The notes under the pieces were generated by a model, which was not told where the DNA came from, did not search any database, and saw only the letters and a list, made by a program, of their open reading frames with translations. From Acidithiobacillus sp. HP-2 (GTDB lineage Bacteria; Pseudomonadota; Gammaproteobacteria; Acidithiobacillales; Acidithiobacillaceae): a stretch of 36,886 bases of DNA. Where the stretch lies: positions 107-36,992 of the forward strand of contig NZ_JACKZA010000023.1 of the NCBI RefSeq assembly GCF_015100155.1, written 5' to 3'. A program made the translations under genes and the position numbers. Below, piece by piece: positions 35,220-36,886 of this stretch (within the stretch, counting starts at the first letter, position 1; every line of letters begins with the position of its first letter).

Positions 35220-36092
35220 ATGTCTAAAAAGTATCCTGTTGTTGCAGTCACCGGTTCTTCGGGAGCGGGTACAACTACTGTCAAACATGCATTTCATGAC
35301 ATTTTTCGGCGCCTGAAGATCAACCCGGTCATCATTGAGGGAGACAGCTTTCACCGTTATAACCGGGCGGAAATGCGTGAAGCTATTGCCCAGGCAGCAG
35401 CAGAAGGTAAGACCATCAGCCACTTTGGTCCCGAAGGTAATGATTTTGAGTCTCTGGAACGTCTGTTCCGTAGTTACGGAGAGACCGGGCATGGCCAGAT
35501 GCGTTACTATGTGCATGATGATGTGGAAGCGGAACTGCGGGGTAGTGCCCCGGGAACCTTTACGCCATGGCAGGATATGCCTACGGGTACGGACCTGCTT
35601 TTTTATGAGGGTCTGCACGGTGGGGTGAAAACCGAAGATGTGGATGTCGCCAATTATGTGGATCTCCTGGTTGGTGTCGTGCCGGTTGTGAATCTCGAAT
35701 GGATCCAGAAAATCCATCGTGATAATGCCCAGCGTGGATATTCGGCTGAAGCCATCGTGGACACGATTTTGCGCCGCATGCCGGATTATATTCATCACAT
35801 TACTCCCCAGTTTTCGCGCGCGCATATCAACTTCCAGCGCGTACCTTTGGTAGATACGTCCAATCCTTTCATTGCCCGGGATATTCCTACGCCCGATGAG
35901 AGCATGGTAGTCATTCGCTTTCGGGATCACAAAGTTGAGCATTTCCCGACCTTGTTGCAGATGATTCCCGGAAGCTTCATGTCGCGTTCCAATACCCTGG
36001 TCATTCCGGGTACGAAAATGGGCTTCGCCATGGAAGTGATTCTCGGGCCGCGTATTGAACAGATGCTGGATGAAAAAAAGGAAGCACTCTGA
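35220..36092 (+). CDS. prkB: Phosphoribulokinase (class I, bacterial)
   Basis: The enzyme phosphorylates ribulose-5-phosphate to ribulose-1,5-bisphosphate, the CO2 acceptor of RuBisCO. The 290-residue length and the P-loop VTGSSGAGTTTVKHAF (about residues 10-25) are those of the proteobacterial, NADH-activated octameric class. Also present are IIEGDSFHRYNRAEMR, SHFGPEGNDF, LLFYEGLHGG, NLEWIQKIHRD and the RVPLVDTSNPFIARDIPTPDES segment. It has its own promoter and terminator, so it is controlled separately from metF. No RuBisCO or other cbb gene is near. Confidence 0.96.
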   Translation: MSKKYPVVAVTGSSGAGTTTVKHAFHDIFRRLKINPVIIEGDSFHRYNRAEMREAIAQAAAEGKTISHFGPEGNDFESLERLFRSYGETGHGQMRYYVHDDVEAELRGSAPGTFTPWQDMPTGTDLLFYEGLHGGVKTEDVDVANYVDLLVGVVPVVNLEWIQKIHRDNAQRGYSAEAIVDTILRRMPDYIHHITPQFSRAHINFQRVPLVDTSNPFIARDIPTPDESMVVIRFRDHKVEHFPTLLQMIPGSFMSRSNTLVIPGTKMGFAMEVILGPRIEQMLDEKKEAL

Positions 36093-36118
36093 TAGCGCGT
36101 TAGTTTCATCCTGATGAC

Positions 36119-36152
36119 ATCCGGTATCGGTAACATCGATACCGGATTTTTT
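36119..36152 (+). terminator. Intrinsic terminator of phosphoribulokinase gene
   Basis: A perfect 11-bp stem (36119-36129 with 36137-36147) with a seven-base loop is followed by a T run. It lies 26 bases after the stop codon. Confidence 0.95.
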
Positions 36153-36194
36153 ATGTCCTGCACTTCATGTGGTGAAAGTCAGATCAGCAGTTTC

Positions 36195-36233
36195 TGTCAT
36201 GACACGACTGCGGCGTTGTCATGACGTGTCATG
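36195..36233 (+). promoter_or_regulatory. Candidate enhancer sites for a sigma-54 activator
   Basis: TGTCATG occurs three times, at 36195, 36217 and 36227. The first is part of a perfect 10-bp palindrome (TGTCATGACA, 36195-36204). Spacings are 22 and 10 bases, about two and one helical turns. They lie about 115-150 bp upstream of the -24/-12 promoter, the usual place for bacterial enhancer-binding protein sites. Confidence 0.6.
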
Positions 36234-36345
36234 CTGGATCGGAAGAAATATAAACAGTTCTATTTGAATGATGCGTTGATGCTTGCTCATGATAAACAAA
36301 TCGTTACAAATAATTTTTGGGTTTTTTAGAGGTTTGTTGAGAGTC

Positions 36346-36361
36346 TGGCCCCTTTCTTGCT
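36346..36361 (+). promoter_or_regulatory. Sigma-54 (-24/-12) promoter of the DUF3034 gene
   Basis: TGGCCCCTTTCTTGCT has the invariant GG and GC separated by 10 bases, and agrees with the TGGCAC-N5-TTGC consensus at nearly all positions. The ATG is 57 bases downstream, so the start of transcription would be about 36373. Transcription would need an ATP-dependent activator. Confidence 0.8.
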
Positions 36362-36417
36362 GTGTGTTTTTATGAGTGCTCTGACACTCAAGAACCGCTT
36401 AACGGCTAGGAGGAGGT

Positions 36418-36886
36418 ATGAAAATTATGGGTAAGTCTGCAAAATCACCCGCTACAAAAGCAGTCATTCTGGCAGTGGCCTGCACGCTGGGTGCATTGGT
36501 CCCTGTGGCCGCCAACGCGGCGATAGGTTCGGCCTGTTTATTTGGCCAGGGCCGCATTTTGGGTACAGGAGCAGTAACGGCGATAGACGGTGCCGCTGGT
36601 GGTGGTATCAACCCCTGGGCAGTGATTTCGGGCTATGGCACCAACCAGCAAATTGGCGCGACCGCTTTTTATTCGCACGTATTGCTGAACAACTACAATA
36701 TGGACGCCTATGGCGCATCGGTCGGACTCTTCAACCGTATTGAGCTTTCTTTTGCCCGCCAGAGTTTTGGGTTGGGGAACACCGGCGGAACTTTGGATGG
36801 AGAGATCAATGATTTTGCCTACGGCGGAGGTGAAACTGCTGCTCAGCGTGCTGCACCAGCCTCGGCCATTCTTGACAAAGCAGGTC
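36418..36886 (+). CDS. DUF3034 family outer-membrane protein (partial)
   Basis: The frame opens at ATG 36418 (alternative ATG 36427) and runs off the right edge, giving 156 codons. A repeated AGGAGG directly upstream favours strong translation; spacing fits ATG 36427 best. A basic N-terminus and hydrophobic segment (AVILAVACTLGALVPVAANA) form a signal peptide. The mature part contains INPWAVISGYGTNQQIGATAFYSH and the DUF3034 hallmark NNYNMDAYGASVGLFNRIELSFARQSFGLG. The family is predicted to be a beta-barrel, of unknown substrate. The sigma-54 promoter points to expression in response to a specific signal. Confidence 0.82.
   Translation, partial: MKIMGKSAKSPATKAVILAVACTLGALVPVAANAAIGSACLFGQGRILGTGAVTAIDGAAGGGINPWAVISGYGTNQQIGATAFYSHVLLNNYNMDAYGASVGLFNRIELSFARQSFGLGNTGGTLDGEINDFAYGGGETAAQRAAPASAILDKAG

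Follow-up and report, generated by a model that had tools for sequence, protein, structure and literature searches.

Li et al. are said to have dealt in 2017 with FisR of Cupriavidus pinatubonensis JMP134, whose target is reportedly pdo-sqr, and we take the regulatory cysteines of this protein to be residues 53/64/71. One-component sigma-54 activators of genes for sulfide and sulfane sulfur are already known. According to the accessible portions of three reports, three conserved cysteines let FisR of C. pinatubonensis respond to reactive sulfur, and the protein switches on the sigma-54 transcription of genes for sulfide oxidation (PMC9774590, PMC12170894, PMC8469610). In Acidithiobacillus ferrooxidans, sigma-54 promoters precede tetH and cyd, the class of the cyd activator not being given in the available portions of the source (PMC5506826). 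A survey counts as bEBPs those with a receiver domain, and its accessible text makes no mention of the FisR-type activator described here (PMC12194929).

The locus considered here lies at the end of a 36,886-nucleotide stretch of DNA from Acidithiobacillus sp. HP-2, analysed as a whole and called the window. The 5' part of a DUF3034 gene (36418-36886, + strand, ATG at 36418) is cut by the end of the window and of its contig (C18, 36,992 bases). Between it and a gene at 35220-36092, which we read as phosphoribulokinase-type, is an intergenic region of 325 bases (36093-36417). The initial annotation had described three TGTCATG elements on one helix face, about 115-150 bp upstream of a -24/-12 promoter, and we recover this arrangement in full. 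TGTCATG occurs on the + strand at exactly 36195, 36217 and 36227, spaced by 22 and then 10 bp, or roughly two turns and one turn of the helix, and the box centres are 116-148 bp before the GG of a sigma-54-type -24/-12 promoter, TGGCCCCTTTCTTGCT (36346-36361, + strand), in which GG (36347-36348), ten bases and GC (36359-36360) make up the GG-N10-GC pattern. Since TGTCATG is also found on the - strand at 36198-36204, overlapping the + strand copy at 36195-36201, box 1 (36195-36204) is a full palindrome, TGTCATGACA. Box 2, TGTCATGACG (36217-36226), is a palindrome with one mismatch that includes + strand TGTCATG at 36217-36223 and is 22 bp from box 1, and box 3 (36227-36233, + strand), 10 bp farther on, is a TGTCATG half element. 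From these elements and the comparisons below, we regard it as very probable that the region serves a DUF3034 operon as enhancer and sigma-54 promoter, under the control of a FisR-type activator.

Other features of the region include an intrinsic-terminator-like hairpin (36119-36147, + strand; 13 pairs, then a T run, by consensus match only) that is situated 3' of the phosphoribulokinase-type gene and separates it from DUF3034. A consensus scan detected no sigma-70-like site in 36090-36430. Between boxes and promoter, AAACAAATCGTTA (36294-36306, + strand) has one mismatch to an IHF consensus and is at a comparable position in five of six genomes, but this candidate site is weak and not above chance, because 525 of 2000 shuffles also yield one. 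At the 3' end of the region, the promoter alignment reveals a conserved leader, CCGCTTAACGGCTAGGAGGAGG (36395-36416, + strand), that ends in a ribosome-binding site, AGGAGGAGG (36408-36416). This leader has at most one change across six genomes, whereas much of the DNA 5' of it varies. An RNA element in the leader was considered and rejected, folding being no better than in shuffles (z +1.19), and no Rfam family reached gathering scores in 36000-36886.

Each element by itself is unremarkable, because the window holds nine TGTCATG where 6.3 are expected and 11 sigma-54-like sites (at most two mismatches) where 8.4 are expected; they carry weight only in combination and through conservation. Three forward TGTCATG in the 325-base region arose in 0 of 5000 dinucleotide shuffles, and two were reached in 9 of 5000. 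When 17 genomes of the genus were searched with the DUF3034 gene of the window, eight matched. The six strong matches (G000, which is the present genome, G001, G009, G010, G015 and G016) make up the promoter alignment, and G005 and G014, with weak DUF3034-like matches (34% identity, ~75 residues), were excluded. In the boxes and -24/-12 site, 41 of 42 columns are invariant, compared with 62 of 218 other columns (Fisher 2.6e-18), the G001 and G010 rows having been excised around the exact promoter string and hence being unable to vary there. G009, which forms the most diverged pair with the window, is identical to it in 41 of 42 site columns and in 99 of 218 others, and each of the five relatives has 15 or 16 of the 16 bases of the -24/-12 site in common with the window. 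Box 1 keeps its first nine bases unchanged in all six genomes and varies at the tenth; what is conserved is therefore TGTCATGAC in boxes 1 and 2 and TGTCATG in box 3. Boxes and -24/-12 site appear as invariant islands in all six genomes, as the promoter proposed in the initial annotation leads one to expect in related species, and together they form a conserved footprint.

The same annotation had implied a dedicated enhancer-binding activator and a genome that encodes rpoN. One match to PF04552 (2.3e-69) represents rpoN, and the sigma-54 activator domain has 20 matches in the genome, 16 of which are strong. Among the 16 strong loci (3.5 kb each), paired boxes, TGTCATGACATGTCATGACA, are present at only one, on contig C2 (locus L013). 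The gene there (G000:C2:42664-44088) encodes the activator that we call FisR-type. Exact TGTCATGACA is found at six places in the genome, two of them in tandem at C2:42514-42533, immediately 5' of this activator. The boxes are between the activator and a divergent dsrE promoter, where a sigma-54-type site, TGGCATATTTACTGCT, precedes genes matching DsrE, TusA and a pyridine-nucleotide-disulfide (SQR-like) enzyme. The SQR-like protein scores 290 bits with the type III SQR model, below the cut-off of 525, and the 267-residue protein encoded after it, which has no match in Pfam, is presumably DUF1641. The present assembly places fisR on contig C2, apart from the contig of the window.

The activator contains PAS_4, Sigma54_activat and HTH_8 domains, all above the Pfam cut-offs, and its PAS domain carries C-x10-C-x6-C, a motif common to eight aligned relatives. 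We call it FisR-type because this motif is shared with a relative in Cupriavidus metallidurans CH34 and because published FisR responds to reactive sulfur through cysteines. Among solved structures (35 matches at 1e-10), the best-scoring stretches fall within residues 130-472 and none reaches the PAS region, and no NCBIfam model is above its cut-off among the matches listed (25 of 29). The AAA+ loop of the protein encoded at L041:6665-8092 reads GAFTGC, not the usual GAFTGA, in four Acidithiobacillus rows and in a row from the same order (G042); GAFTGA is kept in three distant rows of the alignment. Judged by sequence, the boxes at the DUF3034 promoter match those beside a sulfur-sensing type of activator, and the DUF3034 gene is therefore probably on when the cell handles reactive sulfur.

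To gauge how specific the boxes are, we used the tandem pattern TGTCATG-N1-28-TGTCATG, for which a reversed-pattern control gave no occurrence in any of six genomes. The present genome has tandem pairs nowhere but at the FisR and window loci and, once, within a long coding frame, and the complete genome G016 has them at the FisR and DUF3034 loci alone. Pairs that do not fit comprise two inside frames in G009 and two inside frames in G002, a genome without FisR; G003 has one further pair between frames. A 20-base tandem pattern (at most three mismatches, three genomes; control, 0-2 hits per strand) found the activator/dsrE region, the window-type promoter and four three-mismatch places elsewhere, and also a second DUF3034/dsrE intergenic region in G000 and G016. 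With a 17-base tandem pattern (at most one mismatch, seven further genomes), all 12 of 12 rows were at FisR or DUF3034 promoters. We did not count as regulatory the single exact copies of TGTCATGACA elsewhere (G000, G016, G009, G003 and G002), which fall within mechanically called open frames or at their starts. Two genomes carry the same interframe TGTCATG pair, 33 bp apart and away from fisR (L064, G003:C1:184008; L065, G007:C1:1792174), with no DUF3034 match in either genome; this pair is a possible further target. The distance from boxes to GG is 114-148 bp in the window-type promoter (window and G009), and 124-154 bp for dsrE (five genomes measured). For the second DUF3034 copy it rises to 185-276 bp, and in three distant genomes it falls to 80-90 bp, taken to the nearest forward box.

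Boxes adjoin FisR orthologs well beyond the present genome. Within the genus, orthologs at 1e-100 occur in 10 of 17 genomes, each with adjoining boxes, and the other seven have no match at this threshold. When one genome per species was scanned, 247 relatives emerged, and the best 80 of them are what we call FisR-type loci. These include close relatives of one another and span Acidithiobacillus, Sulfuricella, Sulfuriferula, Thiobacillus, Burkholderiales, Chromatiales, a few Nitrospirae and others. In 38 of the 80, compared with 3 of 2810 control chunks from the same loci, an exact box lies in the 350 bp that precede the FisR PAS match, a stretch that takes in some coding sequence because it ends at that match. 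When one mismatch is allowed, the counts are 55 of 80 and 21 of 2810, which leaves 25 loci with no box of this quality. C-x10-C-x6-C is found in 79 of 80, a figure that is partly selected, because the loci are the best 80 of 247 and one of the two search patterns held the first cysteine. At least one queried sulfur gene is near 54 of the 80, and 20 have no queried neighbour, many contigs being short. DUF3034 is found in only seven of the 80 when flanking DNA is compared, and one of these (L133) amounts to 29 residues. At two loci (L136 and L137) the boxes form two groups, of which one is beside an SQR-like gene and the other directly 5' of the FisR-type gene. This arrangement reads as if FisR might also control itself.

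The initial annotation had raised the prospect of a sigma-54 activator beside DUF3034, and several genomes have one near the operon. In G009 and G016, one cluster of ~8 kb holds both the DUF3034 operon and fisR, in the order boxes-promoter-DUF3034-globin-OmpA-DUF4878-C92-HiPIP facing DUF1641-SQR-like-TusA-DsrE-promoter-boxes-fisR. By the order in relatives, from which the arrangement 3' of DUF3034 in the present genome is inferred, the operon would start with DUF3034 and continue with genes for a secreted globin and an OmpA-type lipoprotein, a gene that we take to be DUF4878, one of C92 amidase-like type and, last, an Iro-like iron-sulfur gene, whose 69 bits fall short of the family cut-off of 100. 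Other genomes show further arrangements. In G042, outside the genus, DUF3034 is divergent from a FisR-type gene, with four TGTCATG and a sigma-54-like site between them. In G172, also outside the genus, it stands in line behind dsrE-tusA-SQR-like-DUF1641, near a FisR-type gene. It adjoins a FisR-type gene outside the genus in G283 and G275, and is near one in Acidithiobacillus sp. YTS05 (L134) and in a Halothiobacillaceae bin (L160), where it follows a gene that we read as flavocytochrome-like. DUF3034, fisR, boxes and a sigma-54-like site are together again in distant genomes whose DUF3034 is ~30-38% identical. The elements, the footprint, the pairing of box with regulator and these gene orders are computed results.

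In a class sample of 369 genomes, DUF3034 is present in 18 and the FisR PAS domain (1e-20) in 63, although some FisR genes may be missed, as at most 12 candidates were scored per genome. FisR PAS is detected in 8 of 18 genomes with DUF3034 versus 55 of 351 without it (Fisher 0.005). Boxes are found within 400 bp upstream of DUF3034 in six of the eight genomes with FisR versus none of the ten without it (Fisher 0.0015), by a rule (a palindrome with at most two mismatches plus at least two half-boxes) that was set, and the counts made, after the table had been inspected. The palindrome criterion alone gives seven of eight versus none of ten, and a good sigma-54 site (at least 10 of 12 positions) is upstream of DUF3034 in five of eight versus none of ten. 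In G296 a GG-N10-GC site is nearer to a likely later start codon, and in G101 the DUF3034 start is approximate, with a stop inside the frame. G010 is an exception that speaks against the model, as it has a DUF3034 promoter with all boxes and no clear FisR (best PAS match 2.5e-17; ~180 contigs). G374 and G223 are exceptions too, having both FisR and DUF3034 with no convincing boxes before DUF3034, G374 showing one two-mismatch palindrome at -386. In G016, fisR is in two pieces with a frame at the break that looks transposase-like by eye (L060 and L062; G016:C1 2853057-2855902), and both box promoters are kept.

Because the ten sampled genomes without FisR have neither boxes nor a good sigma-54 site upstream of DUF3034, the FisR link is not a trait of the whole DUF3034 family. 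In seven of these ten (L096, L097, L098, L099, L103, L104 and L105), a frame that looks GGDEF/EAL-like by eye is 5' of DUF3034, mostly with a globin-like gene 3'. This neighbourhood suggests that the barrel-globin pair may have another use, linked to cyclic-di-GMP. In a tree of 24 DUF3034 copies (midpoint root; L108 excluded as a duplicate of L121), the FisR-linked copies fall in two groups; they may have a single origin.

The identification of the gene as DUF3034 in the initial annotation is borne out by the PF11231 profile, which matches the G009 ortholog at 6.4e-96 (321 bits) and, with 102 bits against a cut-off of 25, the copy in the window over the 82 positions that it contains. G000 and G016 have three DUF3034 copies each (L042, L043 and L044). 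One copy faces away from a second dsrE-type gene, three tandem boxes lying between them, and the third (on C3 in this genome) is in the order HiPIP-globin-DUF3034 and lacks boxes. The multiple copies probably caused the contig to break at the end of the window. An AlphaFold2 model built with six sequences (L133, with its 29 residues, excluded from the alignment) has 12 strands and ends in Phe, with a mean pLDDT of 57.7 and a pTM of 0.59. The C-terminal residue is Phe or Tyr in all six aligned rows, and a signal peptide was judged by eye. Outer-membrane barrels dominate the fold matches among those listed; FapF (5o65, Z 20.0), KdgM (4pr7, Z 17.9), NanC (2wjq, Z 17.4) and the COG4313 channel (4rl8, Z 16.9) are among the best, but differ from DUF3034 in sequence (8-11% identity). 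At this identity and at the mean pLDDT of the model, the fold class alone is supported and no substrate can be named. The most likely product, on this model, is an outer-membrane channel of 12 strands. Next to DUF3034, a globin-like gene is found in the clusters of the Acidithiobacillus type and in L134, L160, G296, G374, G197 and G226. Globin is not part of every FisR-linked case, since tblastn found none in the DNA compared for G042, G172, G283 and G275.

These results bear differently on other explanations of the locus. That the boxes and GG/GC site arose by chance, with DUF3034 transcribed from an undetected sigma-70 promoter or by read-through, is highly improbable: taken singly, either element is about as frequent in the window as chance would allow, as such a reading needs, but no shuffle produced the three forward elements, nearly every site column is invariant, and the region shows a terminator-like hairpin behind the upstream gene and no sigma-70-like site in the consensus scan. 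A sigma-54-dependent promoter at which a different one of the 16 activators, such as a response regulator of TspR or NtrC type, recognises the boxes, with the proximity of FisR being coincidental, would accommodate both the number of strong activator loci and the retention of boxes in G010, where no FisR was detected. We think it improbable, given that paired boxes occur only at the FisR locus among the 16, that an exact box precedes 38 of 80 FisR-type genes as against 3 of 2810 control chunks, and that boxes before DUF3034 track the presence of FisR (6 of 8 versus 0 of 10).

A different case is that in which all elements are read as proposed and the PAS domain responds to another oxidant, a metal, or a sulfur species such as tetrathionate, so that only the signal differs from that of the preferred explanation. 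The cysteine spacing in 79 of 80 loci (a partly selected figure), the presence of at least one queried sulfur gene near 54 of 80 loci, and a review whose accessible text has FisR responding to reactive sulfur via three conserved cysteines make this alternative unlikely, although it deserves more weight than either of the others: the sulfane-sulfur signal is a predicted one for this ortholog, FisR of Acinetobacter baumannii is said in the available portions of its report to be without cysteines (PMC7315123), and the operon contains the Iro-like iron-sulfur gene, itself below its cut-off (69 bits as against 100). The initial annotation had left the signal as sulfur or metal. The regulator type and the neighbouring genes favour sulfur, and nothing beyond the Iro-like gene in the operon speaks for metal.

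Under the preferred explanation, in which a FisR-type activator controls the DUF3034 promoter, we infer FisR binding, its signal, sigma-54 dependence and a role for DUF3034 as follows. FisR dimers would bind the phased tandem 10-bp boxes of the TGTCATGACA type on one helix face, and sulfane sulfur would modify the three cysteines of the PAS domain, starting ATP-driven opening as review text describes it for FisR. DNA looping would bring FisR to RNA polymerase-sigma-54 held at 36346-36361, where the AAA+ ring would open the complex, with transcription predicted to start near 36372 and to read DUF3034 through to the Iro-like iron-sulfur gene. The dsrE-tusA-SQR-like-DUF1641 operon would be served by the same FisR and boxes, and the output would be envelope proteins (the DUF3034 barrel, globin, OmpA-type and iron-sulfur proteins) along with cytoplasmic sulfur carriers. 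Because DUF3034 is most likely an outer-membrane channel, the operon probably adds a cell-envelope part to sulfane-sulfur handling. That DUF3034 itself has a role in moving sulfur species is a tentative idea. It is conceivable, with similar reserve, that DUF3034 and the secreted globin, induced by FisR, provide a way across the outer membrane for sulfur in zero-valent or polysulfide form, as an envelope counterpart of the cytoplasmic DsrE-TusA carriers.

If the proposed control is true, a FisR-controlled barrel would be a candidate for the step that moves insoluble sulfur through the outer membrane of sulfur-oxidising acidophiles, and more generally for the passage of elemental sulfur through that of sulfur oxidisers. 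An uncharacterised outer-membrane family gains a candidate regulator, signal and partner genes, and the FisR-type regulator gains a sequence box usable for target prediction in many sulfur oxidisers. The results also give predictions for biomining Acidithiobacillus species, whose sulfur-energy regulation is partly known. The literature searched, outside which the original FisR paper falls, yielded no report of a FisR box, of a wide pairing of such a box with genes of FisR type, or of a DUF3034 operon as a FisR target. Within that literature, no title treats FisR together with Acidithiobacillus, and a search with TGTCATGACA gave no FisR title among the matches listed.

Among the systems most similar to the one proposed here, the tetH and cyd sigma-54 promoters of A. 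ferrooxidans likewise drive energy genes within this group of bacteria, and their activator genes adjoin the targets (PMC5506826, in the portions accessible). TspS/TspR of caldus-type species is also a case of sigma-54 control, and the available text of the survey has activators beside their targets for hupS-hupL and TspR (PMC12194929). However, the tetH activator and TspR are, according to these same portions, two-component response regulators, unlike the PAS-type one-component activator found here. FisR of A. baumannii, as described in the accessible text, resembles the present system in being divergent from its target operon, in having a predicted sigma-54 promoter and in responding to sulfide, but is stated there to be without regulatory cysteines and has other target genes (PMC7315123). 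The closest relative of the activator in the plasmid collection, from C. metallidurans CH34 (43.8% identity over 98% of the query), has C-x10-C-x6-C as in the activator found here, and the 800 bases scanned near its gene contain no TGTCATGACA with at most two mismatches. With C. pinatubonensis JMP134 FisR, as known from the accessible parts of its literature, the candidate shares its type, a sigma-54 activator that carries three regulatory cysteines and serves genes of sulfide oxidation; it differs in its targets, which here are predicted to be dsrE-tusA-SQR-like-DUF1641 together with the DUF3034 outer-membrane operon, and in its host, which is an acidophile.
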